Below are positions 334 through 16,298 of a stretch of 64,000 bases of DNA, in pieces. The notes under the pieces were generated by a model. That model was not told the DNA's origin. It saw only the letters and a list, made by a program, of their open reading frames with translations, and ran no database searches. The stretch's first letter is position 1. Each line of letters starts with the position of its first letter. Source of the stretch: Parvibaculaceae bacterium PLY_AMNH_Bact1. Its GTDB lineage: Bacteria; Pseudomonadota; Alphaproteobacteria; Parvibaculales; Parvibaculaceae. Location: positions 930,001-994,000 of the forward strand of contig CP126168.1 of assembly GCA_032881465.1 (NCBI GenBank). Reading direction: 5' to 3'. Position numbers and translations under genes: made by a program.

Positions 334-408
334 TGGGGCGTGGCCAAGTGGTAAGGCACCGGTTTTTGGTATCGGCATGCGCAGGTTCGAATCCTGCCGC
401 CCCAGCCA
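334..408 (+). tRNA. tRNA-Gln (anticodon TTG)
   Basis: A full cloverleaf can be drawn. The acceptor arm TGGGGCG pairs with CGCCCCA, followed by discriminator G and an encoded CCA. The D arm is GCC...GGC, the anticodon stem CCGGT/ATCGG encloses a 7-nt loop with TTG at the anticodon position, and the T arm GCAGG-TTCGAAT-CCTGC is canonical. The anticodon TTG reads CAA, hence glutamine. It lies at the left border of the polysaccharide locus. tRNA 3' ends are common integration sites, and this one is followed by a tandem duplication of its own terminal sequence. Confidence 0.95.
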
Positions 409-452: not shown

Positions 453-2363
453 TCAATCGATCGTGACGCCGTGTAGCCGTGCCCAGCGATCGAGAATGAA
501 CACACGAAAAACAGCATTTAGAGCCGCCCACGTCCAGGGCCCGCTTGTATCGAGAAGTGCCGCCGCCCCTGATGGGTTTACGAGCGATGCAAGCCTGAAA
601 TCGGAAGAAGCAAAAGCATTCGCGAATTCTGACCGCAACTCGCCCTGCATCCACACATGCATAGGCGTAACAAAGCCCATTTTATCGCGACGTTGCAGTA
701 TTTCGTCTGCGACCTGGCCCTTCAATGCCCCTCGCATAAGTGTTTTTGTGCGACCTCCGCGGACTTTCAGACTGGTAGGAAGCTCAAGCAGGAACTCAAT
801 CAATCGGTAGTCGAGAAACGGAACTCGACTCTCGATACTCCACGCCATGGAGTTGCGATCTTCGTATCTGAGAAGCGCTGGAACGCTAAAGCTGAGAAGG
901 TCATCAATCTGGCGTTCGCTTGACCGATATGTTGCCAGAGTGCTTCCTGGTCGGCTTGAGGCCCATTCGCCTGCGATGCCCGGTTGAACCAAATCGCGAA
1001 GAGGTTCGGCATCACCACGCCTCAAGAACTTCGGAAGGTATCTGACCCCCTGTGATAACTGCAGCAGACCCTTATCGCCGCCCCGCATCCAGCCGGTAAG
1101 ATCGCCCAAAAGATCAAACCATCGTCTTTCCTGGAAGCTTTCCAGAAAAGAGTATGCGACGTACTTGCGATAGCCACATAAGGCTTCATCCGCGCCCTGG
1201 CCATCAAGCAGCACCGGAATCTGTTCGTCCCGGGCTTTTTTCATGAGCAGGTATTGAGCGTAGATGCTTGCTGACGGGAACGGCTCTTCCTGGGTAAGCA
1301 CCAGATGATCAAGATCAGCCATAAACTCAGAAGCTTCGGGAAACACTGTATGAGGTGTGGTGTTGCAAGCCTGATTGACGAGATCTGACCATCTGCGCTC
1401 ATCAAAATCTGAGAGCGAGGAGGCGGACGTAAATGTTGAAATTCCGCCCCCGGAAGGCTGGCTGTGGGTGGCTTCATAGACTATAGCAGAACTGTCCAAT
1501 CCGCCGGACAAACAGGCGCCGACAGGAACATCGGAGCGGAGCCTTAGAGCAACAGCTGAGCTAAATAGAGACCGAAACTGAGCCTCGGCCTCATTCAAGG
1601 AAAGATTGCTGCTGGCTAACCTGCTGCTTGAAGGTTCCCAGAACTTTTGTGGCGAGACGACCGTTGGTCTCTGAGGGTCAATGACGCAAAAACACCCCGC
1701 TGGAAATGTTGAAATGTCGCGAAAAAAAGTATCGTTGGTGTGATTGACAATGCCCCACCGCAGAAAATCGGCCGCTATTTCCTTATCGAGTCTGGGTCGA
1801 TAGTCTTCCAGGCACAGGAGAGCCTTCAATTCCGACGAAAAATAGAGTGTTTGTCCGATGGAGAGGTAGTTTAGGGGTTTTATTCCGAATCTATCTCTAC
1901 TCAGGACGAGGCGTTTACGACGCTCATCCCAAATCGCCATTGCCCACATACCGTTGAAACGGGCAAAACAGTCAGTTCCCCAATATCTATAAGCCTCCAG
2001 AACAACCTCGGTATCTGACTGGGTACGGAAGCTTACACCTGCTCGTTCCAGCTCAGCTCTCAGCTCAAGGTAGTTATAGATCTCCCCATTGTAGGTCAGA
2101 ACAGTATCGTTGCACCGGCTGGCCATAGGTTGATGCCCACCATCGCTTGTATCAATAATCGACAAGCGTCGATGTCCAAGAGCCAGAGTTCCTGCCGGGT
2201 TGCTGGGTATTTCAGAGCGTTTGTAGTGGCTGCAATCCGCGTCAGCCCCTCGAATAGTGTATCCCTCGCCGTCAGGTCCCCTGTGGGCTAGCGATATTGT
2301 TAGGGGTTGGATGTCCGATAAGTCTTTGATTTCTTTGGAAAAAATACCGGCAATGCCGCACAT
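453..2363 (-). CDS. asnB: Glutamine-dependent asparagine-synthase-like amidotransferase (copy 1)
   Basis: This 636-residue protein has the two-domain AsnB layout. The N-terminal class II glutaminase domain starts MCGIAGIF (Cys2 is the nucleophile) with HRGPDGEGY near residue 28 and NGEIYNY near 95. The C-terminal synthetase domain has the PPi loop LSGGLDSS near 285 and LDGQGADEALCGY. AsnB homologues in O-antigen loci (for example P. aeruginosa WbpS) are thought to amidate uronic acids rather than make asparagine. It resembles the copy at 32493 more than the copy at 12437: both share SGGLDSSAIV, DGQGADE and 'YEDRNSMAWSIESRVPF'-like text. It stands alone, divergent from the glycosyltransferase gene at 2780. 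An in vivo acceptor is not deducible. Confidence 0.9.
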   Translation of the reverse strand: MCGIAGIFSKEIKDLSDIQPLTISLAHRGPDGEGYTIRGADADCSHYKRSEIPSNPAGTLALGHRRLSIIDTSDGGHQPMASRCNDTVLTYNGEIYNYLELRAELERAGVSFRTQSDTEVVLEAYRYWGTDCFARFNGMWAMAIWDERRKRLVLSRDRFGIKPLNYLSIGQTLYFSSELKALLCLEDYRPRLDKEIAADFLRWGIVNHTNDTFFRDISTFPAGCFCVIDPQRPTVVSPQKFWEPSSSRLASSNLSLNEAEAQFRSLFSSAVALRLRSDVPVGACLSGGLDSSAIVYEATHSQPSGGGISTFTSASSLSDFDERRWSDLVNQACNTTPHTVFPEASEFMADLDHLVLTQEEPFPSASIYAQYLLMKKARDEQIPVLLDGQGADEALCGYRKYVAYSFLESFQERRWFDLLGDLTGWMRGGDKGLLQLSQGVRYLPKFLRRGDAEPLRDLVQPGIAGEWASSRPGSTLATYRSSERQIDDLLSFSVPALLRYEDRNSMAWSIESRVPFLDYRLIEFLLELPTSLKVRGGRTKTLMRGALKGQVADEILQRRDKMGFVTPMHVWMQGELRSEFANAFASSDFRLASLVNPSGAAALLDTSGPWTWAALNAVFRVFILDRWARLHGVTID

Positions 2364-2779: not shown

Positions 2780-4018
2780 ATGAATGTCTGGATAGTGAAC
2801 CATTTCGCGCTGACCCCTGATCAACCGGGTGGAACACGGCATTTTGAGCTGGCCAAAGAGCTCGGAAGCCGCGGGATTGACGTGACAATAATCGGTGCCA
2901 GCCGACAGCACATATCCAACAGAGACCACATCCCCAACGGCGCTAAGTGGGCTCGCGAGCAGATTGACGATGTCCGGTTTCACTGGATAAAGACACCTTC
3001 GTCCAGCTCCGGCTATTTCTCGCGTGTCTGGAACAACGTGGTGTTTGCCGCCTCAGTTGTTCGACGTCGAGGTTTGAGCGATCTGCAATCGCCAGAAATT
3101 GTTGTCGGAACATCTCCTGATCTAATTTCTGCTCTTTCAGCCTACGTTGTGGCGCGCTTTCTCAAGGTCCCGTTTGTCCTTGAAATCAGGGATGTGTGGC
3201 CGCTCTCGATTGTACAAATTGGTCTGCTTTCGGAGCGTCACCCGGTCGTCTTTTTATTGTCGCTCGTTGAACGTTTTCTCTATCGCAATGCAAGTTGGAT
3301 TGTGACGCTTCTACCCGGGGCGCATAAGCACATCATTGGGCTCGGTGGAAACGCGGACCATATCACGTGGATTCCAAATGGCATTACGATTGGGGAGCAA
3401 GAACCCGCGCGTGCTTCTGATATTGGGCCCAATGGTGATTTTGTCCTTATGTACGCTGGTTCTCACGGCAATGCGAACAATCTGGACTCCCTCATAGAAG
3501 CCGCCGCTTTGCTAAAGCAGGAAGGGAAGCATGAAGGGCTCAAAATCCGAATGGTTGGAGATGGACCTCAGAAAGAGGCCTTGATGCGTTCAGCGCGCAA
3601 ACTCGGATTGGATTTTATGGTGTTTGAGCCTGCAGTCCCCAAAAGTGAAATTGGTGGGGTGTTGGCAGAGGCTGATGCCTTCTGCTTGGTCTTCTATTCT
3701 CGCTCCATCTATGACCTTGGTATGAGCGCCAACAAGCTATTCGACTATTTTGCAGCAGGCCGGCCTATCCTTATGGCGTTTGATGCAAATTACAATCCAG
3801 TTAGGGAGGCCGATGCAGGCATCACCGTGCCTGCAGAAGATGCTGCCTCACTTGCCCAGGCGATCTGCGACCTACGAGAAACAAACGCGGAGCGGCGCAG
3901 AGAGATGGGGCAAAATGCGCAGGCATATGTGAATGAAAACCACAGTATGAAGATTCTTGGCGGCAAGTACGCTGAACTTGTGATGCGGGTGGTTTCGCGA
4001 TCCAAAGGGGAATCCTGA
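2780..4018 (+). CDS. Glycosyltransferase family 4, WbuB-like
   Basis: The 412-residue GT-B protein begins MNVWIVNHFALTPDQPGGTR, followed by HFELAKELGSRGIDVTIIGA. That N-terminus is typical of WbuB-type GT4 enzymes, which transfer N-acetylated deoxysugars in O-antigen synthesis. The C-terminal nucleotide-binding half carries 'FVLMYAGSHGNANNLDSLIE' and a region 'MSANKLFDYFAAGRPIL' with the conserved E/D-x-F-D-Y segment near residue 318. It is cytoplasmic or peripheral. It ends 2 bp before the 2-epimerase gene, so the two are almost certainly co-transcribed. By context the donor may be the diacetamido uronic acid made by the next genes; this is inference. Confidence 0.85.
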   Translation: MNVWIVNHFALTPDQPGGTRHFELAKELGSRGIDVTIIGASRQHISNRDHIPNGAKWAREQIDDVRFHWIKTPSSSSGYFSRVWNNVVFAASVVRRRGLSDLQSPEIVVGTSPDLISALSAYVVARFLKVPFVLEIRDVWPLSIVQIGLLSERHPVVFLLSLVERFLYRNASWIVTLLPGAHKHIIGLGGNADHITWIPNGITIGEQEPARASDIGPNGDFVLMYAGSHGNANNLDSLIEAAALLKQEGKHEGLKIRMVGDGPQKEALMRSARKLGLDFMVFEPAVPKSEIGGVLAEADAFCLVFYSRSIYDLGMSANKLFDYFAAGRPILMAFDANYNPVREADAGITVPAEDAASLAQAICDLRETNAERRREMGQNAQAYVNENHSMKILGGKYAELVMRVVSRSKGES

Positions 4019-4020
4019 CA

Positions 4021-5118
4021 ATGGCCTTTAAAGTTGTGTCCGTCGTCGGCGCGCGTCCGCAGTTTGTCAAAGCGGCAGTTGTAAGCCGTATTCTAGGCGA
4101 GGATGACGCGTTTTCAGAAGTGATGATCCACACCGGTCAGCACTATGATGATGACATGTCGGACATCTTCTTCCGTGAGCTGAATATCCCGGCGCCAAGC
4201 TACAATCTTTCGATTGGGTCTAGCTCCCACGGCGCGCAAACCGGGAGGATGTTGCAGGCGATTGAGGAAGTACTATTGGAAGAGAAGCCAGATTGGGTTC
4301 TCGTATATGGTGACACAAACTCAACACTTGCTGGAGCGCTGGCTGCTTCGAAAATTCACATACCTGTAGCGCATGTTGAAGCTGGGTTGCGTTCGTTCAA
4401 TAAGCGCATGCCCGAAGAACAGAATAGGATAGTTGCGGATCACTTATCGACGTTGCTCCTGACGCCGACAAAATCAGCAACTGAGAATTTGCTCAGCGAA
4501 GGTGTCGCGCAACAGCGGGTTGAGCAAATAGGTGATGTGATGTTTGACGCCACTTTGTTTGCTCAAGGACGTGCCAGGTCCGGATCAAGTGCGATCGAAC
4601 GACACGGTCTTGAACCCGGTGGGTATGTGCTTTCAACAATTCATCGCGCGGAAAACACGGATAGTTTGCCTCGTCTCGAGGCAATTCTTCATGGTCTGGC
4701 GTCTGTGGCGCAGCAGCTTCCCGTCGTATTGCCTCTGCACCCTAGGACACGAAAACTCATTCAAGAACGACCTGAGTTGGAGAAGGCTTCCCAGTGTTTG
4801 AGGCTTCTTGAGCCAGTCGGATATTTTGACATGGTGGATCTGGAAGCCGGAGCAGCGGTAATTGCAACCGACTCTGGGGGAGTCCAGAAGGAAGCGTATT
4901 TCAATGCGAAGCCCTGTGTGACGCTTCGCGACGAGACCGAATGGGTGGAGCTTGTTGAACTTGGATGGAATAGGCTGCAACCACCCGCGAGCGCCGAACT
5001 TGTCGAAGCTGCAATTCTGGGTGCCATTGGCACTGAAGGCACGAAGACTGGCACACCCTATGGGCAGGGGCAGAGTGGCGGCCTGGTCGCCGCTGCGATT
5101 AAGAAACACGCAGGTTAG
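4021..5118 (+). CDS. wbpI: UDP-N-acetylglucosamine 2-epimerase family, probably acting on UDP-GlcNAc3NAcA (WbpI/WlbD type)
   Basis: Non-hydrolysing UDP-sugar 2-epimerase of 365 residues, the usual length. It has 'VVGARPQFVKAA' at the N-terminus, 'IHTGQHYDDDMSDIFF' near 38, 'VYGDTNSTLAGALAA' near 100, 'HVEAGLRSFNKRMPEEQNR' near 124 and 'TDSGGVQKEAYF' near 283. WecB makes UDP-ManNAc; WbpI/WlbD are close relatives that epimerise UDP-GlcNAc3NAcA to UDP-ManNAc3NAcA. The genes for dehydrogenase, oxidase/acetyltransferase and aminotransferase lie immediately downstream, so the WbpI/WlbD role is favoured over WecB. A 188-bp gap separates it from the dehydrogenase gene. Confidence 0.85.
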   Translation: MAFKVVSVVGARPQFVKAAVVSRILGEDDAFSEVMIHTGQHYDDDMSDIFFRELNIPAPSYNLSIGSSSHGAQTGRMLQAIEEVLLEEKPDWVLVYGDTNSTLAGALAASKIHIPVAHVEAGLRSFNKRMPEEQNRIVADHLSTLLLTPTKSATENLLSEGVAQQRVEQIGDVMFDATLFAQGRARSGSSAIERHGLEPGGYVLSTIHRAENTDSLPRLEAILHGLASVAQQLPVVLPLHPRTRKLIQERPELEKASQCLRLLEPVGYFDMVDLEAGAAVIATDSGGVQKEAYFNAKPCVTLRDETEWVELVELGWNRLQPPASAELVEAAILGAIGTEGTKTGTPYGQGQSGGLVAAAIKKHAG

Positions 5119-5306
5119 ACGACAATAACAGTCTAAACGCTGACCAGTTCTAGCCGAAAACCCCGAGTTTCTGCCAAATATTGAGCAGAGTTCAGTCGAT
5201 GAAATTGATCTTGAAACACTGGTGGTGTTATTAGTAGCTCTGGGGTAACAGAGGCAATACAGATAGCTTGGGGCAACTAAGCGACGCAAATGGGGATTGA
5301 AGAGTA

Positions 5307-6677
5307 ATGGCTGTAAGTGAGAGCTATTCTGTGGAAAATTCAAGAGGCAGTCTAGCACGTGACTTGCTGCAAAAGATCAAGGATAGCTCAGCGAAAGTGG
5401 GGGTTATCGGCCTTGGATATGTTGGACTTCCCTTGGTCGAGCTTTTCTGTCGGCAGGAGTTCGGTGTCGTTGGGTTCGATATCGATGATACCAAGGTAGA
5501 CCGGCTGAATGCAGGCGAGAGCTATATTGGTCATATCCCGTCAGAATCTGTCGCTGCGCTCGTGAGCGATCACCAGTTTGAAGCCACCAACGATTTTGAT
5601 CGCCTTAAAGAAGTCGACATTATTGTCTGTTGCGTTCCAACACCCCTAACGCGCCATCGCGAGCCGGATTTGTCGGCGATTATAGCGACTGCACAGGCCA
5701 TTCTTCCAAGGTTGCAGCCTGGCCAGCTTGTGATCCTTGAATCGAGCACGTTTCCCGGAACAACCGATGAGATTGTTAGGCCGATTTTGGAGCAGAATAA
5801 TCTGAAGGCAGGCAAAGATTTCTTCCTGGCATACTCGCCAGAACGAGAAGACCCTGGAAACAAGACCCATACGGCGAAGACAACCCCAAAAGTTGTTGGC
5901 GCAGATGGTGATGACGCCTTGGCGGTTGCAAGTGCAATTTACGACAGGATCATTGATGCCACGGTCATGGTGTCTGACAGCCGAACAGCAGAAGCAGTAA
6001 AGCTGACCGAGAATATTTTCCGGTCAGTAAACATCGCCCTCGTCAATGAATTGAAGATCATCTACGACCGTATGGGCATTGATGTTTGGGAAGTTATTGA
6101 CGCTGCAGCCAGTAAGCCCTTTGGTTTCATGCCTTTCTATCCAGGCCCGGGGTTAGGTGGACATTGTATTCCTATCGACCCGTTTTACCTGACCTGGAAG
6201 GCTCGGGAATTCGATGTTCCGACCCGATTTATCGAGCTGGCCGGTGAAATCAATACGCAAATGCCCAACTATGTATTGAGAAAACTGGCTGATGCGTTAA
6301 ACGATAATTTTTCGCGGTCCGTCAAAGGGTCGCGAATTCTCATCCTGGGCATCGCCTATAAAAAGGATGTGGACGACATGCGTGAAAGCCCCTCACTGGT
6401 GCTCATTGAGCGGCTTGAGGAAGCCGGGGCTGTTGTTGATTTTCATGACCCCTTCATTCCTTCTGTGCCTCACACAAGAGAGCATGACGCGCTATCTGGC
6501 CGAGCGTCGGTGGACCTAACTCCAGAAACGCTCCAGTCATACGATGCGGTTCTCTTGTCCACCGATCACACGCCGGTGGACTACAAGATGATCTCCATGA
6601 ATGCTCCTTTGATTATTGACACTCGGAATAAAGCGTATCGAGGGTCAGATGCCAAAGCAGTTATTATTAAGGCTTGA
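5307..6677 (+). CDS. wbpA: UDP-N-acetyl-D-glucosamine 6-dehydrogenase (WbpA type)
   Basis: This 456-residue UDP-glucose/GDP-mannose dehydrogenase family enzyme oxidises C6 of a UDP-hexosamine to the acid with two NAD+. The Rossmann motif VGVIGLGYVGLPLVELF lies near residue 31. The active-site Cys is in GGHCIPIDPFYL near 285, and a C-terminal UDP-binding domain carries 'LGIAYKKDVDDMRESPS'. The WbpA/WbpO-like sequence and the neighbouring WbpB/D/E homologues indicate UDP-GlcNAc as substrate, the first committed step to UDP-GlcNAc3NAcA. The first ~30 residues (MAVSESYSVENSRG...) extend beyond the core. The fusion gene follows after 15 bp. Confidence 0.9.
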   Translation: MAVSESYSVENSRGSLARDLLQKIKDSSAKVGVIGLGYVGLPLVELFCRQEFGVVGFDIDDTKVDRLNAGESYIGHIPSESVAALVSDHQFEATNDFDRLKEVDIIVCCVPTPLTRHREPDLSAIIATAQAILPRLQPGQLVILESSTFPGTTDEIVRPILEQNNLKAGKDFFLAYSPEREDPGNKTHTAKTTPKVVGADGDDALAVASAIYDRIIDATVMVSDSRTAEAVKLTENIFRSVNIALVNELKIIYDRMGIDVWEVIDAAASKPFGFMPFYPGPGLGGHCIPIDPFYLTWKAREFDVPTRFIELAGEINTQMPNYVLRKLADALNDNFSRSVKGSRILILGIAYKKDVDDMRESPSLVLIERLEEAGAVVDFHDPFIPSVPHTREHDALSGRASVDLTPETLQSYDAVLLSTDHTPVDYKMISMNAPLIIDTRNKAYRGSDAKAVIIKA

Positions 6678-6692
6678 TTGAGTAATATCTAA

Positions 6693-8246
6693 ATGACAAT
6701 GGAAAAAGCGAGAGTAGTGGTTTGCGGTTGTGGCCACTGGGGCAAGAACCTTGTGCGCAACTTCGCAGCGCTGGATGTTTTGGCGGGCGTAAGCGATCCT
6801 AACGCAGAGACAGCAAAAAAATTCGCAGACGAGTTTTCAGTTCCGGCCTTGTCATGGAATGAAGTGCTCGAGTCAAAAGACGTTACTGCTGTCGCCATAG
6901 CAGCACCTGCTGAGCTTCATACCACTCTTGGCGTCGCAGCTATGCAGGCTGGGAAGCACGCCTATATCGAAAAACCGCTGGCGCTGACGCGGGAAGATGG
7001 CGAAAAGCTCATCCAGGCGTCCAAGGAAACAGGGCGGCAGCTGATGGTTGGGCATCTGTTGCAATATCATCCTGCCTTCCTTGAGCTTAAAAAGCTTGTT
7101 GGAACTGGTGAGCTGGGACGTTTGCAGTACGTTTATTCCAATCGTCTGAGTCTGGGAAAAATCAGACGGGAAGAAAACGTTCTGTGGAGTTTTGCTCCGC
7201 ATGATATTTCGATGATCCTGGGTCTGGTTGATGAGGAGCCTAGTGAGGTTCGCAGTACGTTTTCACCAATCCTGCACGATGAAATCTCCGACACTGTTCA
7301 AGTTCAGTTGGGTTTCCCCAGTGGTGTTCGCGGACATGTTTTTGCGTCCTGGTTGCACCCCTTCAAGGAGCAAAAACTTGTTGTGATCGGCGACCAGGGA
7401 ATGGCGGTCTTGGATGACAGGGCGCCTTGGGCGGAGAAACTGACTCTGTATAGACATCGGATAGATTGGCGTGATGGTATGCCAACGCCCAATGCTGCAG
7501 ATGCAGAACCCATTCCATTGCCGGAGTCAGAGCCGCTCAAGCTAGAGTGCCAGCACTTTATCGATTGTATTGAGAATGGGACCCAACCGAGAACAGACGG
7601 AAAAGAAGCCCTAAGGGTTCTCAATGTATTGCTTGCAGCAGATCCTGATGCAGACAGATCTGCCAGCCAGAACCGGTTCCCCGGTGTGCAAATTCACGAG
7701 AGCGCCTATGTCGATGAGCCTGTCTCAATCGGCGCGGGCACAAAGATTTGGCATTTCAGCCATCTGCTCGGCAATGTTGCGGTTGGAAAATCTTGTTCGT
7801 TAGGTCAAAACGTTGTCGTGGGGCCGAACGTGAAGGTCGGAGACAATTGTAAAATACAGAACAATGTCAGCCTCTATGAAGGTGTCGAACTGGAAGACGG
7901 TGTGTTCTGTGGGCCATCCTGTGTGTTCACAAATGTGAACAATCCCCGTTCTGAAATCGCGCGCAAAGATGAGTTTCGCAAAACGCTAGTGAAGCGCGGC
8001 GCAAGCATTGGTGCGAATGCAACGATTGTCTGCGGCAATTCGCTGGGCGAGTTTTCGTTTGTTGCAGCCGGTGCAACCATTACGAAAGATGTCCCCGCTT
8101 ACGCGTTAATGGCTGGTGTTCCGGCAAAACGTATCGGGTGGATGAGTAAAGCGGGCAGCCGTCTCGGCGAGGACTTGGTCTGTCCTCTCGATGGAACCAA
8201 ATATCGTGAAGTGGGGCCTAATCAGCTTCAGGAAATAGTGGAGTAG
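6693..8246 (+). CDS. Fused UDP-GlcNAcA 3-oxidase and UDP-GlcNAc3NA N-acetyltransferase (WbpB-WbpD / WlbA-WlbB type)
   Basis: A 517-residue two-domain protein. Residues ~1-320 are a Gfo/Idh/MocA NAD(P)-dependent oxidoreductase: '[20 protein letters not shown]' at the N-terminus, the EKPLALT motif near 91 and 'FAPHDISM' near 167. Residues ~330-517 are a left-handed beta-helix acyltransferase with repeated hexapeptides ([48 protein letters not shown]-like text). In Pseudomonas and Bordetella these are separate proteins (WlbA ~350 aa, WlbB ~190 aa) that oxidise C3 of UDP-GlcNAcA and acetylate the 3-amino group. The fused length nearly equals their sum. The aminotransferase that works between them is encoded 8 bp downstream. 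The first ATG is used here; a second ATG lies 6 bp later. Confidence 0.88.
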
Positions 8247-8254
8247 CCTCAACC

Positions 8255-9385
8255 ATGAGCAACCAACCAATACAGTTCATCGACCTTGCAGCCCAGCAGG
8301 CCAGAATACGAAAGAAGGTCGATGCAGGTATCGCGGGCGTCCTTGATCACGGGCAATACATTATGGGGCCCGAGGTAAAAGAGTTTGAACAACAGCTCGC
8401 AGACTTTACCGGTGCTGCTCATGCATTCGGATGTGCCAACGGTACGGACGCCTTGGCAGTTGTTCTGATGGCTTGGGACGTGGGGCCAGGAGATGCGGTA
8501 TTTGTTCCCTCCTTCACCTATGTGGCGAGTGCGGAAGTTGTTGCGATGTTGGGTGCCACACCGTTTTTTGTCGATGTGGACGAAGCGACCTTCAATATTG
8601 ATGTAGATAGTTTTGCGAAGGCCATCGGCGACGCGACCGATCAGGGTCTGTCTCCATCAGTTGTTGTGCCTGTGGATCTGTTTGGCCAGCCAGCCAATGT
8701 GCCAGAAATTCAGCGTGTAGCAGAAAAACACGGCATCAAGATACTTGTCGATGCAGCTCAGAGTTTTGGCGCAACGCTTCACAACAAGCGGGTGGGAACT
8801 TGGGGGCACGCAAGCACCACAAGCTTTTTTCCAGCAAAACCTTTGGGATGCTACGGCGACGGCGGTGCTATTTTTACCGATGATGATGACTTGGCTGTCG
8901 TCATTAACTCAATTCGCCTGCACGGGAAGGGCAGCCAGAAATACGACAATGTGCGTATTGGCATGAATTCTCGTTTGGACACTATCCAGGCCGCAATTTT
9001 GAAAGAGAAGCTTGCCATTTTCCCAGAGGAAGTGGAGGCACGCAATCGTGTCGCAGCTCGCTACACTGAAGGATTGAAGGGTGTTGCGCGAACCCCAAAA
9101 TTGATGGATGGAGCTACATCCGTTTGGGCTCAGTACACCTTGATTGTTGACGATAGAGAGAGCATTCAAGCTAGGTGCAAAGAAGCCGGTGTTCCAACGG
9201 TCGTGTACTACCCCATGGCTCTGTCACAGCAAACTGGATACAAGCACTTTCCAGCAGTATCCGGAGGGACGCCGGTGTCAGACGCTTTATCCGGCAAGGT
9301 GCTGAGCCTTCCTATGCATCCCTATCTTGGCGAAGCTGATCAGGACAGGGTCATCGACGCCGTGACAGGCGCCCTGAAGGGCTGA
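8255..9385 (+). CDS. wbpE: UDP-2-acetamido-2-deoxy-3-keto-glucuronate aminotransferase (WbpE/WlbC type, DegT family)
   Basis: PLP-dependent DegT/DnrJ/EryC1/StrS aminotransferase of 376 residues. It begins with the family signature QFIDLAAQQARIRKK. It has the cofactor region 'GCANGTDALAVVL' near 60, 'DAAQSFGA' near 166 and the PLP lysine in 'TTSFFPAKPLGCYGDGGA' near 194. WbpE/WlbC transfers an amino group from glutamate to the 3-keto sugar produced by the oxidase domain encoded just upstream. Regenerating 2-oxoglutarate for the oxidase couples the two. This closes the UDP-GlcNAc3NAcA pathway. The gene ends 12 bp from the convergent WbmF-like gene. Confidence 0.88.
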   Translation: MSNQPIQFIDLAAQQARIRKKVDAGIAGVLDHGQYIMGPEVKEFEQQLADFTGAAHAFGCANGTDALAVVLMAWDVGPGDAVFVPSFTYVASAEVVAMLGATPFFVDVDEATFNIDVDSFAKAIGDATDQGLSPSVVVPVDLFGQPANVPEIQRVAEKHGIKILVDAAQSFGATLHNKRVGTWGHASTTSFFPAKPLGCYGDGGAIFTDDDDLAVVINSIRLHGKGSQKYDNVRIGMNSRLDTIQAAILKEKLAIFPEEVEARNRVAARYTEGLKGVARTPKLMDGATSVWAQYTLIVDDRESIQARCKEAGVPTVVYYPMALSQQTGYKHFPAVSGGTPVSDALSGKVLSLPMHPYLGEADQDRVIDAVTGALKG

Positions 9386-9397
9386 GCTCGGCGCCTC

Positions 9398-10453
9398 CTA
9401 TAGGCGCGCCATGAAATAATCGTGTTGGGCAATACAGCGCTGAATGGTCGCCTCGTTCGCTCGTGTCCATTCAACAGTCTTCGTGATCCCCTCGCGAAGG
9501 CTGACTTGGGCCTGGAACCCAATTTTGTCTTTTGACTTTTCAGTTGACCCAAAACGTTTCCCAGACCGGTCCCAGTCTCGTGCGGGCTTAAGGTCGGCGG
9601 GGGTCGGATTCCCAGTGAGCTCGTTTATGACTTCGGCAAGCTCGAGGATGGTCGTTTCCACGCCCGATGCAAGGTTATAGATTTCGCCTGCTTCTCCATT
9701 CGCCGCACATGCCATCAGGCCTTTCGCCATGTCTTCAACAAAGATGAAGTCCCGGCTTGCATTCCCGCCATTGTCGAGCGGAAGAGCTTCGTGGTTGAGC
9801 GATTTCCAGATGAATGTGGGCGTGACATTTCTCCAGACAGTGTGATGCGTTCCGCGCCATCGGCCAGCACCCAGAATTTCCCGTGGTCCATAAACATTCT
9901 GAAAACGCGCTTTGACGATCGGTAGATCGTGGGTGCGCCAGAAATAATTCCCGTACAGCTCGCCGATCAACTTCGAAATGGAATACGGGCTGTCATGGTA
10001 AAGTGATACCGGCGCATCCTCGGTGGTTGCAACCGGGTCATCAAAGGTCTTCTCCGCGACGGCGCATCCCGCTGCCGCGTAGACCACTTTCTTGAGACCT
10101 TTGATATCTTTAAGTCGGTCAAAGAGCTTTAGCGATGTCAGCGTGTTGTTTTCATGATCAGCCATTGGATCATGAATTGATGACTGGTTTCCATGATAGC
10201 AAGACAGATGCCATGCATAGTCCAGATTATCCGGGAGTGCTTTGAGTATCGCATCATCCGTTATGCTGCCAAAAACGAACCGAACCGCAGGATGATCTGG
10301 AACATTGCTAATGTCTGACGAGAGCAGGTTGTCCACTATGGTGAGGCTTTGGGGCTCTGCTTTGAGAAGCTGCGCAGCCAGATTGCTGCCGACAAATCCA
10401 GCGCCGCCCACGATGAGAAGGTTTTTGTTTTTGAACGTAGGTAGATCAGTCAT
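9398..10453 (-). CDS. wbmF: WbmF-like extended short-chain dehydrogenase/epimerase
   Basis: A 351-residue extended SDR with the NAD-binding motif GGAGFVGSNL near residue 16 and a catalytic YSISK near 154. The segments 'CYHGNQSSIHDPMADHENNT', 'RFQNVYGPREILGAGRWRGT' and 'TPTFIWKSL' match, from memory, Bordetella WbmF (about 375 aa) very closely. WbmF/G/H act together on UDP-diacetamido-uronic acids in O-antigen synthesis and are linked to the L-galacto isomer. It is the last gene of the minus-strand operon asnB-wbmH-wbmG-wbmF. The precise epimerisation catalysed is from the family, not from the sequence. Confidence 0.88.
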   Translation of the reverse strand: MTDLPTFKNKNLLIVGGAGFVGSNLAAQLLKAEPQSLTIVDNLLSSDISNVPDHPAVRFVFGSITDDAILKALPDNLDYAWHLSCYHGNQSSIHDPMADHENNTLTSLKLFDRLKDIKGLKKVVYAAAGCAVAEKTFDDPVATTEDAPVSLYHDSPYSISKLIGELYGNYFWRTHDLPIVKARFQNVYGPREILGAGRWRGTHHTVWRNVTPTFIWKSLNHEALPLDNGGNASRDFIFVEDMAKGLMACAANGEAGEIYNLASGVETTILELAEVINELTGNPTPADLKPARDWDRSGKRFGSTEKSKDKIGFQAQVSLREGITKTVEWTRANEATIQRCIAQHDYFMARL

Positions 10454-10478
10454 AAAGCCTCACTGCACTGGCTTGCGA

Positions 10479-11417
10479 TTATTTGGTGGAAGGTGTGGAA
10501 AGGTGGCTATAAACAGCATCGATTCCATGCTCATCATACCATGTAAGCATGCGATGCATCATTGTCTTGAAATCAATCTGAGCGCTCCAATCAAAGGTGC
10601 GTTCGGTTAGCGATGGGTCCAATACAACGACGGGGACATCATCAGCTTCCGGGGCGACAATTGGCACAGGCTCGGAAAGACTGACACCCAGGTGGTCAAC
10701 GACACAGTCGAAAATCTCCTTGATGGAGTGTCCTGTACCTGTTGAGACGTTGAAGACCCCTACCGGTGCGTCGTCCTCTAGAGCTTTCTCCGCAAGAACA
10801 AGGAAGTCCTCTGCATCGATGAAGTCGCGAACTGTATCGCTGCAGAAGCAGGATTTTCCCTCTTTTAGACGCTGGTAGAATGTGGGGATAGGCCCGATTG
10901 AAAGACGGGGCCCTGTAACATTCGCCAACCGTAGAGATATGGAGTCAATCGTGGATTGAAGGATGTACTGTTCGCCAGCGGTCTTGCTCACGCCGTATGA
11001 GGTGAATGGTGCGACTGGCGCTGTCACCGGGATCGGAGTCTCTGAGGCACGCCCATAACAAAGGGCCGTCTGAAAATTGAGCAGTCGTTTGACGCCTGCT
11101 TTTTCCGCAGCCTTTACCAGTCGAATAGTGCCAACGACGTTCGTTTCGCTGTCCTCAAGCCAATCATCAGGATCTTTGTAGGATGCTGCCGAATGGATGA
11201 CATGGGTCGGAGAAAAATCAGCAAAGACCTTATCCAATAAGCGCTGATCGGCAATGCTTCCTTCGTGCTGAACCAAATTGGGCAGGCCGTCAGGAAGTGC
11301 ACCGCGATGCCCCGTCGCAAAATTGTCGATGACGCAGATATCGTGGCCTTTGGGGAGGAGCCGTTCTATCAGGCTCACTCCCAGACTTCCGGCACCGCCG
11401 GTGATCAGAATCCTCAT
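10479..11417 (-). CDS. wbmG: WbmG-like extended short-chain dehydrogenase/epimerase
   Basis: A 312-residue extended SDR: MRILITGGAGSLGVSLIE at the N-terminus (GxxGxxG), 'HSAASYKDPDDW' near 83, 'NFQTALCYGR' near 122, catalytic 'YGVSK' near 146, and 'SLRLANVTGPRLSIGPIPTF' near 164. The text matches what I recall of Bordetella WbmG. It is a paralogue of the downstream-strand neighbour at 11426: both share SAASYKDP-DW and NFQTALCYG / YFQTALCYG. It lies 25 bp from wbmF and 8 bp from wbmH, so an operon is certain in practice. Probable role: nucleotide-sugar epimerase/dehydratase step on the diacetamido uronic acid. Confidence 0.88.
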   Translation of the reverse strand: MRILITGGAGSLGVSLIERLLPKGHDICVIDNFATGHRGALPDGLPNLVQHEGSIADQRLLDKVFADFSPTHVIHSAASYKDPDDWLEDSETNVVGTIRLVKAAEKAGVKRLLNFQTALCYGRASETPIPVTAPVAPFTSYGVSKTAGEQYILQSTIDSISLRLANVTGPRLSIGPIPTFYQRLKEGKSCFCSDTVRDFIDAEDFLVLAEKALEDDAPVGVFNVSTGTGHSIKEIFDCVVDHLGVSLSEPVPIVAPEADDVPVVVLDPSLTERTFDWSAQIDFKTMMHRMLTWYDEHGIDAVYSHLSTPSTK

Positions 11418-11425
11418 TGTTTTTC

Positions 11426-12367
11426 CTAAGACTTGCTGTCGTGCTTCAAGTGAGTGTACCCGCCATGAACACCAAACTCTTCATAATAGTCGACCGCTGC
11501 TTTCACGAGCTCATTGAGAGGCGTGAACTCAACTTCACCAAAATCCTGAAATGTCTTTGAGGGGTCGAGAAGGATGCTGGCAGCATCATCTGGTCCCAAA
11601 GGCCGGACGTCGGGCTCCGGATAATCGTTGAGCTGCATTCCAGCAACGACAGCGTCATACAGTTCCTTAATGGCGATGTCCTTGCCTGACGAGAAGTGAT
11701 AGGGGCCAGAACCCTTTCCCTCGACTGCTTTCACTACGACGTTTGCCAGGTCCTTAACAAAAACAAAGTCACGCTTGGCCTCTGTGACAAAACATTGTTT
11801 GCCGGCTTTTAGCCGCTCATAGAAGATAGGCAGAGGGCCGGAGCAGTTCCGCGGGCCGATGACATTGGCAAGACGGAAAGTGACGTAGTCCAGACCCGAG
11901 ATTTCCAGATAGTCTTCCGTAGTTGTTTTGGAGATCGCATAACTTGAATTGGCCGGGTTCTTAGGATGATCTAGAGGGATCGGCTGAGTGATCGGGTGTA
12001 GGCCATAGCACAGCGCGGTTTGAAAATAGACAAACCGGCCAACGTCATTTTCTTTCGCAGCCTTGATGAGGTTTGCACCACCGACAGAGTTTGTCAGTGT
12101 GTCGGAATACCAATCTTCAGGGTCCTTGTAGGACGCCGCTGTGTGCACCAGAACGGATGGCTTGTGAGTGCTGACAATATCATTTACCAGATCGCGGTCA
12201 CTGATTGAGCCTTCAACAAAAGTAAGGTTGGGATGGCTATCTGGTAAGTGGAGGCGTCGGCCTGTTTCCATGTTGTCAATTGCGACAACGCTTTCGCCAG
12301 ATGCAAGGAGTAGTTCGGCGACGTGAGATCCTACTTGGCCACATCCACCTGTGATAAAAACTGTCAT
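11426..12367 (-). CDS. wbmH: WbmH-like extended short-chain dehydrogenase/epimerase
   Basis: A 313-residue extended SDR with MTVFITGGCGQVGSHVAELL at the N-terminus, 'HTAASYKDPEDWYSDTLTNS' near 85, 'YFQTALCYGLHPITQPI' near 123, catalytic 'YAISK' near 147 and 'VTFRLANVIGPRN' near 163. This is the WbmH pattern as I recall it from Bordetella. It is followed 8 bp later by its paralogue wbmG. A perfect hairpin lies in the 69-bp gap to the preceding amidotransferase gene. The three SDRs together probably remodel UDP-GlcNAc3NAcA or its 2-epimer to a galacto-configured sugar. Confidence 0.88.
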   Translation of the reverse strand: MTVFITGGCGQVGSHVAELLLASGESVVAIDNMETGRRLHLPDSHPNLTFVEGSISDRDLVNDIVSTHKPSVLVHTAASYKDPEDWYSDTLTNSVGGANLIKAAKENDVGRFVYFQTALCYGLHPITQPIPLDHPKNPANSSYAISKTTTEDYLEISGLDYVTFRLANVIGPRNCSGPLPIFYERLKAGKQCFVTEAKRDFVFVKDLANVVVKAVEGKGSGPYHFSSGKDIAIKELYDAVVAGMQLNDYPEPDVRPLGPDDAASILLDPSKTFQDFGEVEFTPLNELVKAAVDYYEEFGVHGGYTHLKHDSKS

Positions 12368-12396
12368 TGGTCGTCTTTCTCGTTCAGTAAACCTGC

Positions 12397-12420
12397 CGAC
12401 ATTTCAAAAGTGAAATGTCG
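12397..12420. repeat. Perfect 9-bp inverted repeat between asnB-like and wbmH genes
   Basis: CGACATTTC and GAAATGTCG are perfectly complementary and separated by 6 nt (AAAAGT). The hairpin lies inside the minus-strand operon, between the end of the amidotransferase gene and the start of wbmH. There is no T tract on the minus strand, so an intrinsic terminator is doubtful. An mRNA-processing or stabilising hairpin, or a binding site, is possible. Confidence 0.6.
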
Positions 12421-12436
12421 CCTGTGTATTAGCATT

Positions 12437-14353
12437 TTACAATGGGTTCATCTTCTTCCAGTGCGCAGCACGGTCGTGAAACTTTTGGTGCCAAATCTCT
12501 AGACTGAGCAAGCCCCAAGTTTTGCGGGAAAATTTGAGTTCGGCACCGACGCCTTCGGCAATCCGTTCGGTGTTCATGAACGGTCTATGCTGAGCGCTGT
12601 TCCTGGCAAACGTATCCGATACGAAGTCTTTGAGTTCGCCTCCGAACCATTCTTTGAGCGGGACAGGGAAGCCCATCTTATCGCGGCGGCTGGTAATCGA
12701 AGTCGGAAGCTTGTCTCCAAAAGATTGCTTTATAAGATGCTTCATATTTCCACCCTCAAACTTGACGTCTGCAGGGACCGTGGCGGCAAATTCAACCAGC
12801 GGGTGATCAAGGAACGGAACCCGAGACTCCAGCCCATGAGCCATCGCCATGCGATCTTCCACGTTCAGCAGGGCAGGGAGTAAGCACTTGAAGTCGAAAT
12901 GCGTCATCTTGTCGAAATAGGCTTCTTTCCCGACATTCGACTTGTTGAAAATCTGCCTGAAAGAGTCGAAAACCTGGCCCTTGTTCAGCTGATTCCAATC
13001 AACCTCATCCGTCATGTCATTCGAGCGGTCAATAAGGCGGAAGTAACGTGCGTCTAGGTCCTCAAACAAGCCTTCTTGCCAGAACATCTTGATCATCGGC
13101 TTGTATTCACGGAGCAGGCCTAGGTTCGGGATGATCGACTCGATAGTTACGACATAGTGACCATCGTGATAGCTGCCATCGAGCGCTGCCTTGATGCACT
13201 GTTCGAAGTAGGCAACGAGGTAGCGGGCATAGCCACCGAATATTTCGTCTCCGCCCTGCCCGCCAAGAACGACCTTGACTTTTGCAGCAGCCAACTTCGA
13301 CACCATATATTGCGGAAAGGACCCGGGGCCTGCGGTTGGAAAGTCCAGATGGTAGATGACATCTTCAATCGACTTCTCGAAGTCTTGTGCCGTGATGCTG
13401 GCCTGATGCAGGCTAGACCCAGAAAATTCTGCAGCGTCTACCGCATATTTGCTTTCGTCATATCCAGGAAACTGGGTGAACTTGCCATGAAAACAGTCTC
13501 TGTTCTGTTGGTCATGGTCAGCAGCCAGGATGGCCATCAGGCTCGAGTCGATCCCGCCAGACATGTAGCTTCCAACCGGCACATCGCTTCGTAGATGAAA
13601 CTTCATGGAGTCCATCAGAAGTTCGCGAAACCTGTTCTCGAAATACTTGGGTGAGTGGTCATAGTCGATGTTGTACTCGACGTCCCAGTACTTTTTCACC
13701 TGCACCTGCGAACCTGTTTCGACCGTGAGCATGTGCCCGGGCATAAGCTGCTTGATCCCTTTGAAGAGGGTCTGCTCACCAATGCAGTATTGGAATGTAA
13801 GGTACTCGGCAAAGGACTCCGTGTCGGTCTGGATGTCAGGAAGAAATGGAAGAAGTGCCTTCGCCTCGGAAGCGAAAAAGAGCATCCCCTTGTCGATCAT
13901 GTAGTAGAGAGGTTTGATGCCAAAGCGATCCCGCAACAAGGTGAGACGGTGGGACCGCTGGTCATAAATGGCGGTGGCAAACATTCCCCGAAGCTGCTGT
14001 GCGAAATCAGCACCGTAACGGTCATAAGCGGCCAAGACCGCTTCAGTGTCACTCGTGCTCTTAAAGCTCCAGCGGTCTTTGAGGCGATCATGCAACTCTA
14101 GGTAGTTATAGACTTCGCCATTATGAGCGATCACGGTGCCATTCTCGCCGACCATGGGTTGGTGGCCTGCAGTTGACAGGTCCAATATGCTTAACCGTCT
14201 GTGAGCAAATCCCACGCTGCCGTCCGGCGAAACCCACTGTCCTTCGTCATCGGGGCCCCGGTGCTCGAGAAGTTGGCCCATCACAGTAAGTGCTTCTGAC
14301 AGGCGGGGAATATCGTCCCCATTTAGGCTCACAATTCCCGCAATTCCACACAT
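12437..14353 (-). CDS. asnB: Glutamine-dependent asparagine-synthase-like amidotransferase (copy 2, WbmE-like by context)
   Basis: A 638-residue class II amidotransferase. It begins MCGIAGIV with Cys2 as glutaminase nucleophile, HRGPDDEGQW near residue 32, NGEVYNYLEL near 77 and the PPi loop MSGGIDSSLMA near 262. The synthetase domain has 'VVLGGQGGDEIFGGYARY', the more usual AsnB form, unlike the 'DGQGADE' of copies 1 and 3. It heads the minus-strand operon with wbmH, wbmG and wbmF. In Bordetella an AsnB-like gene neighbours wbmF-H and is associated with uronamides in the O antigen, so amidation of a diacetamido uronic acid carboxyl is the best guess. Genuine asparagine synthesis cannot be excluded. 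Confidence 0.9.
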   Translation of the reverse strand: MCGIAGIVSLNGDDIPRLSEALTVMGQLLEHRGPDDEGQWVSPDGSVGFAHRRLSILDLSTAGHQPMVGENGTVIAHNGEVYNYLELHDRLKDRWSFKSTSDTEAVLAAYDRYGADFAQQLRGMFATAIYDQRSHRLTLLRDRFGIKPLYYMIDKGMLFFASEAKALLPFLPDIQTDTESFAEYLTFQYCIGEQTLFKGIKQLMPGHMLTVETGSQVQVKKYWDVEYNIDYDHSPKYFENRFRELLMDSMKFHLRSDVPVGSYMSGGIDSSLMAILAADHDQQNRDCFHGKFTQFPGYDESKYAVDAAEFSGSSLHQASITAQDFEKSIEDVIYHLDFPTAGPGSFPQYMVSKLAAAKVKVVLGGQGGDEIFGGYARYLVAYFEQCIKAALDGSYHDGHYVVTIESIIPNLGLLREYKPMIKMFWQEGLFEDLDARYFRLIDRSNDMTDEVDWNQLNKGQVFDSFRQIFNKSNVGKEAYFDKMTHFDFKCLLPALLNVEDRMAMAHGLESRVPFLDHPLVEFAATVPADVKFEGGNMKHLIKQSFGDKLPTSITSRRDKMGFPVPLKEWFGGELKDFVSDTFARNSAQHRPFMNTERIAEGVGAELKFSRKTWGLLSLEIWHQKFHDRAAHWKKMNPL

Positions 14354-14709: not shown

Positions 14710-15525
14710 TTGTTGAACATGGCAACTGAGAATGCTGCTCTTGTTTTTGATGATCTGTATCGATCCGTCGCCCATAGGCGTCTCTGGTTAGCACTGGGGT
14801 GGCGCGACATCAGAGCACGTTATCGCAGAACCGTTCTCGGCCCGTTATGGACCAGCATGAGTGCAGCTGTTCTCATATTCGCCCTCGGCGCAGTGTATTC
14901 GATACTTTGGGGTGTCGATATCACCGATTTTCTCCCGTATTTCTCAGCTGGCTATCTGTCCTGGCAGTTCATTTTGCTGGTTACAAATGAAGGCTGTCAG
15001 GCACTTACAACCAACCAGGACGTCATCAAGTCGCTTCGGTTGCCATATGGCGTCCACATACTCAGGTTATTGTGGCGCAACGTCTTGGTTTTCGCGCATG
15101 GTCTAGTAGTACATTTGATTGTTCTGCTGGCACTGACAGACGGGCTGCAGTGGATCAATTTTCTGTTTTTTGCAGGACTCTTCTTAGCCCTCGTCAACGG
15201 GTTTTGGATTGCGCTGCTGTTGTCGATCGTTTGTGCGCGCTTCCGCGACGTGATGCAGGTGGTCGCCAGCATCATGCAGGTTATGTTTTTCATCACACCG
15301 ATATTCTGGCCTGCTGAAAGGGTTGCGTCCGAACCAATCGCGGAGTTCATTTTGGTGAAGATTAACCCACTTTTTCATCTGATTGACGTAATGCGCCAGC
15401 CGCTGATTGGGCAGGTTGCTGGTAGCGAATCGTACATCTATTTGAGCGTCTCTGCAGTTCTAGGGATTGCTGCGGTGACACTCTTCACCGGTCGTTTCTA
15501 CCGCCGGTTGGCATACTGGGTTTAG
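14710..15525 (+). CDS. wzm: ABC-2 type polysaccharide exporter, permease subunit (Wzm)
   Basis: A ~270-residue inner-membrane protein of the ABC-2 family. A cytoplasmic N-terminus contains the typical 'WLALGWRDIRARYRRTVLGPLW' text (IxxRYR...LGPLW is the family signature), followed by about six hydrophobic helices. It pairs with the ATPase gene 11 bp downstream to move a lipid-linked polysaccharide across the inner membrane. Start choice: GGAGG at 14698-14702 is 7 nt before TTG at 14710 but 16 nt before the first ATG at 14719, so TTG is preferred; the ATG alternative drops three residues. Confidence 0.9.
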   Translation: MLNMATENAALVFDDLYRSVAHRRLWLALGWRDIRARYRRTVLGPLWTSMSAAVLIFALGAVYSILWGVDITDFLPYFSAGYLSWQFILLVTNEGCQALTTNQDVIKSLRLPYGVHILRLLWRNVLVFAHGLVVHLIVLLALTDGLQWINFLFFAGLFLALVNGFWIALLLSIVCARFRDVMQVVASIMQVMFFITPIFWPAERVASEPIAEFILVKINPLFHLIDVMRQPLIGQVAGSESYIYLSVSAVLGIAAVTLFTGRFYRRLAYWV

Positions 15526-15536
15526 GGTTAAAGAGA

Positions 15537-16298
15537 ATGAAGAAACCGGCAATATCATTGCGAGGGCTAACGGTAGAGTTCCCTATCTATGACCCAGATC
15601 GGAGTCTACGCAGGATTATCCTGAAGAACACTGTCGGTGGAGATATTCGGAACGAAGCAGGTGAGAGCGGCCGAGCGGTCGTCATGGCCTTAAACGATAT
15701 AAATATCGACATACAACCCGGAGAGCGAGTGGGTCTGATCGGGCCAAATGGCGCTGGAAAGTCAACTCTACTCCAAGTCATCGCCGGTGGTTACTTTCCT
15801 ACCCGCGGTGCGGTCGAGATCAAAGGCCAGACGTCATCTCTGTTAACCCTGGGGGTGGGAGTTGATCCTGAGGAAACAGGGTACGAGAACATTTTTGCAG
15901 GCTGCCTTTATCGGGGGATGAGCAGGCCGCAGATCCGTGCCGCGATACCCGATATCGTCGAGTTCTGTGAGCTTGGGCAGTACTTGTACATGCCGGTAAG
16001 GACGTACTCGTCCGGTATGCTCGTTCGACTGTCATTTGCGATTGCGACCGCTGGGACAGCTGATGTCCTTGTCATTGATGAGATCATTGGCGTCGGCGAT
16101 GCCAAGTTTTCAGAAAAGGCAAACAAGCGAATGACAAACCTGATGGCATCCGCGAACACATTGCTGCTTGCATCGCATTCGAACGAGATGATCAAGTCTT
16201 TCTGCGACCGCGCGATTTACATGGAGGCGGGGAATGTCGTCTTTTTTGGGGATGTTGATGAGGCGATCGAGCGTTATACGATTGCGCTGAATGGCTAA
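15537..16298 (+). CDS. wzt: ABC-2 type polysaccharide exporter, ATPase subunit (Wzt)
   Basis: A 253-residue ABC ATPase: Walker A GPNGAGKST near 69, 'YMPVRTYSSGMLVRLSFAIA' (signature) near 157, Walker B VLVIDEIIGVGD near 177 and an H-loop 'LLLASHSNEM' near 208. It has the N-terminal extension with 'FPIYD' and the long stretch before Walker A typical of Wzt/TagH/KpsT. It ends right after the ATPase fold, so it lacks the C-terminal carbohydrate-binding domain that recognises the capped chain end in E. coli O8/O9a Wzt. Export is therefore probably coupled to synthesis without that check, or uses another cap reader. Confidence 0.9.
   Translation: MKKPAISLRGLTVEFPIYDPDRSLRRIILKNTVGGDIRNEAGESGRAVVMALNDINIDIQPGERVGLIGPNGAGKSTLLQVIAGGYFPTRGAVEIKGQTSSLLTLGVGVDPEETGYENIFAGCLYRGMSRPQIRAAIPDIVEFCELGQYLYMPVRTYSSGMLVRLSFAIATAGTADVLVIDEIIGVGDAKFSEKANKRMTNLMASANTLLLASHSNEMIKSFCDRAIYMEAGNVVFFGDVDEAIERYTIALNG

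Follow-up and report, generated by a model that had tools for sequence, protein, structure and literature searches.

The closest described relatives of the locus presented here are the five-enzyme pathway WbpA/B/E/D/I from uridine diphosphate N-acetylglucosamine (UDP-GlcNAc) to UDP-2,3-diacetamido-2,3-dideoxy-D-mannuronic acid (UDP-D-ManNAc3NAcA), the Bordetella counterparts of which are WlbA-D, and the wbm O antigen locus of Bordetella. The latter is described with the gene order wbmI, wbmH, wbmG, wbmF, wbmE and with wbmL-N as ATP-binding cassette (ABC) exporter (Hester 2013). Mutants in wbmF, wbmG and wbmH are reported to lose the O antigen or to display reduced amounts, and a scheme of C4 oxidation, 3,5-epimerisation and reduction has been proposed (PMC2279256). 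Beyond Bordetella, the set has been described in Laribacter hongkongensis of another family, the Neisseriaceae, which is reported to carry wbmF/G/H/I/K (PMC2652115, PMC3125207) and is likened here by gene names alone. Here, we analyse a 64,000-nucleotide stretch (the window; bases 930001-994000 of the single-contig 3.74 Mb genome) of Parvibaculaceae bacterium PLY_AMNH_Bact1, an alphaproteobacterium, in which Wbp genes (4021-9385, plus strand) are convergent with an operon-like array asnB-wbmH-wbmG-wbmF (9398-14353, minus strand).

We assign a probability of about 0.72 to the reading that this locus makes UDP-2,3-diacetamido-2,3-dideoxy-L-galacturonic acid (UDP-L-GalNAc3NAcA), along with the corresponding uronamide, for a surface polysaccharide exported by an ABC transporter; from homology, residue conservation, gene order and co-occurrence we infer every chemical step, the stereochemistry, the amidation and the polymerisation. 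UDP-GlcNAc would be oxidised at C6 by WbpA and at C3 by the WbpB half of a fusion protein, aminated at C3 by WbpE, acetylated by the WbpD half and inverted at C2 by WbpI to yield UDP-D-ManNAc3NAcA. Subsequently, C4 would be oxidised by one or both of the Thr/Tyr/Lys (TYK) oxidoreductases WbmH and WbmG, the C3 and C5 protons would be exchanged by WbmF without redox chemistry, and reduction back at C4 would give UDP-L-GalNAc3NAcA, the carboxylate of which AsnB would convert to the amide. Glycosyltransferases, possibly including a GT-B protein of an unnamed family, would polymerise the chain, and the adjacent ABC transporter would export it.

The Wbm and Wbp proteins of the window

Judged by their sequences, the three short-chain dehydrogenases/reductases (SDRs) are genuine Wbm proteins. 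The best PDB matches of wbmF, wbmG and wbmH are 2pzj (483 bits; next distinct sequence 235), 2pzk (459; 234) and 2q1w (512; 239), which are listed as Bordetella WbmF, WbmG and WbmH (King 2007, PMC2279256), and identity to these crystallised Bordetella bronchiseptica proteins is 63, 64 and 72%; the bit scores are roughly double those of the structures ranking next. The runner-up for wbmG and wbmH is the other member of the pair, while that for wbmF is the Methanothermobacter SDR Mth375 (6pmh), described to have Ser129 and Phe89 where WbmF has Ala131 and His90 (PMC12820599). Both motifs that the earlier note had quoted as matching Bordetella are found (window RFQNVYGPREILGAGRWRGT, Bordetella RFQNVYGPGEILGAGRWRGT). 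The Wbm matches lie far above PDB GalE entries, and in an IQ-TREE phylogeny that holds no characterised GalE the Wbm SDRs cohere and remain separate from the outgroup, which consists of three further SDRs encoded in these loci. The clustering with generic UDP-glucose epimerases by which the earlier note would have been refuted was thus not borne out.

WbmF has been proposed to be a non-redox 3,5-epimerase that uses Cys133 together with His90 or Asn213, with Ala131 replacing the Ser/Thr of other SDRs (King 2007, PMC2279256). In the alignment H87, A128, C130 and N209 of the window protein correspond to H90, A131, C133 and N213 of Bordetella. In all 23 WbmF rows aligned, those of the window and B. 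bronchiseptica among them, positions 90, 91, 92, 131, 132, 133, 161, 165, 190 and 213 do not vary, and Arg296 also matches, with one row (L017) out of frame there. The Ala131 oddity is therefore not peculiar to Bordetella. WbmG and WbmH are closest to the crystallised proteins and retain the TYK triad, assigned from the alignment as it is unnumbered in the paper.

It is unlikely, though to be taken seriously, that the same genes yield another isomer, such as L-gulo by C5 inversion only, or D-galacto. Stereochemistry cannot be read from sequence, and the galacto assignment of the 2,3-diacetamido-hexuronic acid of Listonella anguillarum and Vibrio ordalii is stated to require revision to gulo (PMC3210612); however, WbmF, WbmG and WbmH are 63-72% identical to the enzymes of Bordetella, whose polymer is reported to be L-galacto (PMC2279256), and the wbmG-less sets discussed below would be the likelier makers of another isomer.

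The claim that genes for all five steps from UDP-GlcNAc to UDP-ManNAc3NAcA are present was borne out, and the pathway reading is consistent with the substrate residues of WbpI as well as the proposed catalytic residues of WbmF. WbpI matches best the Thermus thermophilus epimerase 8sxv (439 bits), which acts at C2 of UDP-2,3-diacetamido-2,3-dideoxyglucuronic acid (UDP-GlcNAc3NAcA), followed by the next enzyme 4neq (296 bits; PDB). Compared by raw position number rather than structural alignment, R12, Q14, K17, A18, H41, D43, Y96, D98, E120, H208, R209, H240 and R242 have the same numbers as in the Thermus enzyme, for which specificity residues have been described (PMC10622841). Thermus Trp307 is window residue 308, whereas Ser284 and Glu290 have Asp and Lys at the raw numbers, which fits the one-residue shift seen for Trp. 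Thus, the Trp that replaces the Arg of UDP-GlcNAc epimerases is found together with Ala18 and Tyr96. The WbpD half of the 517-residue wbpB-wbpD fusion matches best 3mqg (211 bits; next 121), and WbpA and the WbpB half are provisionally assigned from fold and context alone. All five activities of the described pathway are thus matched by a window gene, with the difference that wbpB and wbpD are fused, as also in L007, L032 and L030. A suspected fusion of WbpI with a glycosyltransferase in L030 resolved into separate frames.

UDP-D-ManNAc3NAcA has been derived as a stereochemically fitting substrate of the WbmF pathway (King 2007, PMC2279256), and in six other loci (L026-L031) wbpI comes immediately after wbmF, which fits this assignment. 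Both observations speak against two operons serving two separate sugars, with WbmF, WbmG and WbmH not using the WbpI product, which we consider quite improbable. What lends that alternative some weight is a Wbp-only version of the locus in a genome of the same genus (G002, L047), in which wbpA-wbpB-wbpD-wbpE-wbpI, with B and D separate, occur with an ABC transporter and two glycosyltransferases of the unnamed family with no WbmF match, so that in this genome the Wbp product presumably serves by itself.

Pfam and NCBIfam scans agree with the gene calls for the Wbp/Wbm region, and every claimed frame was found at its place and on its strand (Table 1). The glycosyltransferase gene preceding wbpI lies within the region delimited by the earlier note and was not mentioned there. 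The Wzm- and Wzt-like pair expected of an ABC-exported O antigen is present. Two long proteins of the polysaccharide locus, at 18382-20790 (802 aa) and 27124-29007 (627 aa), have no Pfam match and look hydrophobic by eye.

Table 1. Features of the locus, with positions in the window.
Feature	Position	Strand	Basis
tRNA-Gln	334-408		adjoins first AsnB
Second AsnB-type amidotransferase, outside module clade	453-2363	-	Pfam Asn_synthase; AsnB tree
GT4-type glycosyltransferase	2780-4018	+	Pfam Glyco_trans_1_4, Glyco_trans_4_4
WbpI/WlbD-type UDP-GlcNAc3NAcA 2-epimerase (predicted)	4021-5118	+	best PDB 8sxv; specificity Trp, Tyr, Ala present
WbpA-type UDP-GlcNAc 6-dehydrogenase (predicted)	5307-6677	+	TIGR03026, 427 bits; exact substrate from context
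WbpB-WbpD fusion: Gfo/Idh/MocA 3-dehydrogenase and left-handed beta-helix N-acetyltransferase (predicted)	6693-8246	+	Pfam domains 7-315, 331-413
WbpE-type 3-aminotransferase (predicted)	8255-9385	+	PDB 4qgr 438 bits, WbpE 3nyu 377 bits
WbmF, proposed non-redox 3,5-epimerase	9398-10453	-	63% to 2pzj chain; proposed catalytic residues
WbmG, TYK oxidoreductase	10479-11417	-	64% to 2pzk chain
WbmH, TYK oxidoreductase, wbmG-associated subclade	11426-12367	-	72% to 2q1w chain; tree
Module AsnB, wbmI position, probable uronamide-forming amidotransferase	12437-14353	-	Pfam; clade of 16 module AsnBs
ABC-2 transporter membrane subunit, Wzm-like	14710-15525	+	Pfam ABC2_membrane
ABC transporter ATPase, Wzt-like	15537-16298	+	Pfam ABC_tran
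GT-B glycosyltransferase of unnamed family recurring with module	29551-31005	+	no Pfam/NCBIfam match; GT-B model

Distribution, gene order and descent of the module

WbmF is rare. At an expectation value (E) threshold of 1e-80 it was detected in 3 of 40 genomes of the window's own order, all within its own genus (3/7) and none among the 33 others. It occurred in 8/386 genomes of the window's class, 1/349 of the Bordetella order (the centre genome itself) and, with the centre genome included each time, 2/298 of the class of the Anaerolineales genome, 3/250 of the Lachnospiraceae family and 2/297 of the phylum of G070 (the L014 genome), whereby these five scans scored the best few candidates per genome and may have missed some. 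A scan of named genomes with two short peptide patterns gave 12 loci, one of which (L018, 23% identity) is not WbmF. At the limits used, WbmF was unmatched on 72,556 plasmids and 50,697 phage records, and it was not found in viral contigs. The comparison set comprises 22 genomes (the window; L007-L012, L014-L017; G006, G333, G342, G181, G395, G197, G114, G1051, G1320, G1088, G1392), with L013 (3.5 kb, Lachnospiraceae, wbmH-wbmF-asnB), L018, the weak SDR matches L002-L004 and the second SDR of L010 and L027 dropped before counting. Of these 22, 21 carry wbmH (not G395) and 20 the module asnB (not G395 and G1320); in the two genomes with misses the contigs end beside wbmF or inside wbmG.

The convergent operon was confirmed, whereas the claim that gene order and strand arrangement differ from Bordetella does not hold for the core. 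Nine of the 11 wbmG-bearing genomes possess a contiguous same-strand asnB-wbmH-wbmG-wbmF: the window, L007, L032 (G006), two Microvirga (L008, L009), Bordetella pseudohinzii (L011), a Burkholderiales metagenome-assembled genome (L017), L026 (G333) and L027 (G342). In G181, asnB-wbmH-wbmG lies about 17 kb from wbmF, and in G395 the set is cut by the contig end. With the Bordetella locus, the window thus shares the four genes in the order wbmI-wbmH-wbmG-wbmF (as in B. pseudohinzii) and the proposed catalytic residues; it differs in the adjacent and convergent Wbp genes (compared with 21 kb of L011), in the wbpB-wbpD fusion and in a WbmF that belongs to another clade. As separate observations, wbmG of the same-genus G006 is broken by an in-frame TAG (L032:10237-11166) with wbmF, wbmH and asnB open; wbmF and asnB of the Burkholderiales genome are each split by a frameshift (L017:6056-11033), which may be an assembly error; and G342 has equal-score WbmH and glycosyltransferase matches with a cut WbmG match near both contig ends (C1, 1548-11860 and 3323811-3333913), probably an untrimmed circular overlap.

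In the WbmF tree (22 rows; the frameshifted L017 was left out of the careful tree), the window groups with eight other alphaproteobacterial rows (support 100/99), while Bordetella WbmF groups with Chloroflexota, Lachnospiraceae and G1392 (96/90). The nearest named locus is L007, from Alpha proteobacterium Mf 1.05b.01 (Parvibaculaceae), with 97% identity in WbmF, in line with an alphaproteobacterial origin. The earlier note had proposed transfer of the Bordetella module. The patchy presence in 3/7 genomes of the genus and 0/33 of the other genomes of the order, as well as Bordetella WbmH nesting among alphaproteobacterial WbmH (a quick tree with support by the Shimodaira-Hasegawa-like approximate likelihood ratio test, SH-aLRT, only), would fit import from Bordetella or close kin. 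However, a forced clade of window genus and Bordetella WbmF is rejected by the approximately unbiased (AU) test (p-AU 1.2e-5), and the well-supported clade of nine alphaproteobacterial rows and the lack of plasmid and phage matches speak against it too, so that we regard such an import as highly improbable. Taken broadly, the module has travelled between lineages, but it did not spread by recent export from Bordetella. A forced clade of all wbmG-bearing WbmF rows withstands the AU test (p-AU 0.062), so that a mosaic origin can be no more than suggested for the Bordetella cassette. The order of duplication is not fixed, since the WbmG/WbmH tree is only weakly rooted (H side 0.46). The GC content of the region (51.7%, compared with 53.4% for the window) was not used as evidence of transfer.

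The module AsnB, a probable amidotransferase

The window asnB, with Pfam domains Asn_synthase and GATase, had been named WbmE. This name was abandoned, as WbmE is described as a periplasmic transglutaminase-like deamidase acting on uronamide-rich O chains (PMC3507681). By the published order (Hester 2013), asnB, which precedes wbmH, stands at the wbmI position, and deamidation by WbmE implies an O chain that is initially synthesised in amidated form, in agreement with wbmI encoding an amidotransferase. The genes wbmF/G/H/I/K have been grouped as 'epimerases/dehydratases and amidotransferase' (PMC3125207 / PMC2652115); wbmI was identified here by this grouping and by its position in B. pseudohinzii rather than by comparison with the B. 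bronchiseptica protein. Frameshifts in wbmO and wbmI have been held responsible for a Bordetella strain having lost its O antigen (PMC12243275; PMC4497623). In B. pseudohinzii, wbmF converges with a second AsnB gene instead of a transglutaminase gene, and no WbmE-type transglutaminase was found among the window locus proteins scanned with Pfam, which did not comprise every frame.

The module AsnB is probably a uronamide-forming amidotransferase, as suggested by its phylogeny and gene neighbourhood. Sixteen of the 20 module AsnBs (without the partial or split L014, L015 and L017, and without G181) form one clade with SH-aLRT 100 and a stem of 1.06 changes per column in a quick tree with a long-branch warning; it spans five groups, the Alpha- and Betaproteobacteria, Chloroflexota, Lachnospiraceae and the phylum of L014. 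Eleven other AsnBs of the same loci, including the second of B. pseudohinzii, fall outside. This distinctness, together with the position of the module AsnB next to wbmH or wbmF in 20/20 genomes where it was found, leaves little room for a standard asparagine synthetase that merely happens to lie here, a very unlikely alternative for which its match to the general asparagine synthase model TIGR01536 speaks. A precedent for a uronamide-forming amidotransferase is WbpS, said to belong to TIGR03108 (PMC7468200); WbpS-type enzymes share with the window protein the AsnB fold in a Wbp-type locus and a proposed amidation of uronic acid, with the difference that the window AsnB stays below the TIGR03108 cut-off. 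The window harbours three AsnB-type amidotransferases within its surface-polysaccharide locus (453-2363, 12437-14353 and 32493-34397), and the module clade includes just the second of these.

Several observations weigh against the synthesis of UDP-L-GalNAc3NAcA and its uronamide by this locus. AsnB passes NCBIfam only as TIGR01536 (482 against a cut-off of 267) and fails TIGR03108 with 412 bits against the curated cut-off of 816.9. The WbpB half fails the cut-off of the archaeal model NF040723 (162 against 450 bits), with Gfo/Idh/MocA domains present, and WbpA has no specific match. Within the stretch of each locus examined, wbpI was seen in 11 of the 22 WbmF loci. The chemistry of WbmF, WbmG and WbmH itself had been inferred from structures and mutants (King 2007, PMC2279256). 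Finally, as 11 of the 22 genomes carry wbmF and wbmH but show no wbmG, the scheme with two oxidoreductases is not universal.

Sets without wbmG and a recurring glycosyltransferase

The wbmG-less genomes are G197 and G114 of the window's class, L010 and G1051 of the Anaerolineales class (Chloroflexota), L014 (Myxococcota by its taxonomy) and G1392 of the same phylum, together with five members of the family Lachnospiraceae (L012, L015, L016, G1320, G1088). In all 11 the WbmG query gave a WbmH-like match only (43-48% identity), whereby several are drafts in which wbmG might reside in an unassembled part. The order is asnB-wbmH-wbmF in six, wbmH-wbmF-asnB in four and a contig ending after wbmF in one, with wbmH and wbmF side by side except in G114. 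There, a frame between the two genes (L031:8474-9340) appears methyltransferase-like by eye, and a wbmG hidden in this gap was rejected. The core of asnB, wbmH and wbmF thus recurs in Alphaproteobacteria, Chloroflexota, Lachnospiraceae and the L014 phylum (Myxococcota).

WbmH differs with the presence of WbmG. In quick trees, which were calculated without the partial wbmH of L016, the partial wbmG of L029, the interrupted wbmG of L032 and G181, 10 WbmH rows of wbmG-bearing organisms (nine genomes and the B. bronchiseptica chain, without G181 and G395) are united in a single clade (SH-aLRT 100, stem 0.67), whose limits exclude the 10 rows of wbmG-less genomes (without G072/L016). The TYK region and Ser176 are kept in both kinds. 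With the L015 row dropped, 26 columns are each nearly fixed in WbmG, wbmG-associated WbmH and wbmG-less WbmH, yet not all alike, and the two kinds of WbmH differ in 11 of these. In wbmG-less genomes a single WbmH may perform both redox steps, another reductase may assist or the product may differ.

Genes neighbouring the module were clustered and then aligned, which revealed the unnamed GT-B family. The window member has no Pfam or NCBIfam match; some other members match Pfam Glyco_trans_1_2 weakly. Its AlphaFold model (mean predicted local distance difference test, pLDDT, 79.5) resembles GT-B enzymes such as HepE, PimB' and BshA with a template modelling (TM) score of about 0.5 by target length and about 0.4 by query length. 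The family occurs in 18 of the 22 WbmF genomes (not found in G395, G067, G071 and G1320), directly after wbmF-wbpI in L026, L027, L030 and L031, and in Bordetella L011 as part of an 886-residue protein; at the limits used it was not found on plasmids. Among 270 genomes of the window's class, eight possess the family, five of them WbmF-positive (5/5 versus 3/265, p 5e-9; 2/2 versus 3/265, p 3e-4, without the profile-building genomes), with the family having been picked from these loci and the other drawn genomes treated as WbmF-negative, possibly including G395, which is WbmF-positive without the family. Specificity for the L-sugar was dropped as an explanation; since G002 has Wbp genes, an ABC transporter and two copies without WbmF, the family may have a more general role with diacetamido uronic acids.

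Tentatively, and with more doubt than confidence, these findings can be combined into an older and wider pathway without WbmG, in which one WbmH-type enzyme beside AsnB would oxidise and re-reduce C4 around the non-redox WbmF. WbmG would have come to split this work in Alpha- and Betaproteobacteria with WbmH changing along, and the GT-B family would transfer the diacetamido uronic acid. No published description of the core lacking wbmG, of the AsnB specific to the module or of the unnamed glycosyltransferase family turned up in searches of open-licence full texts, which were not directed at these three subjects in particular. Whereas the window locus itself is a well-supported addition to the Bordetella WbmF/G/H pathway, the wbmG-less form is the novel part.

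WbmG, needed by Bordetella, is missing from related sets in four bacterial groups, and these natural sets with one TYK enzyme, together with a WbmF site that is invariant across phyla, make an old pathway question testable by simple assays. The sugar substrate has come nearer to hand through a 2023 study, which reports the use of UDP-GlcNAc3NAcA with Thermus WbpI and the product UDP-ManNAc3NAcA bound in the crystal (PMC10622841). As the relative Mf 1.05b.01 is reported to have been isolated from a culture of the coral alga Breviolum (PMC10915500), the window genome is, by analogy, presumably that of a marine member of the Parvibaculaceae. The module also marks a rare surface sugar in organisms from which it had not been known, among them Lachnospiraceae and a bacterium obtained from a coral alga culture.

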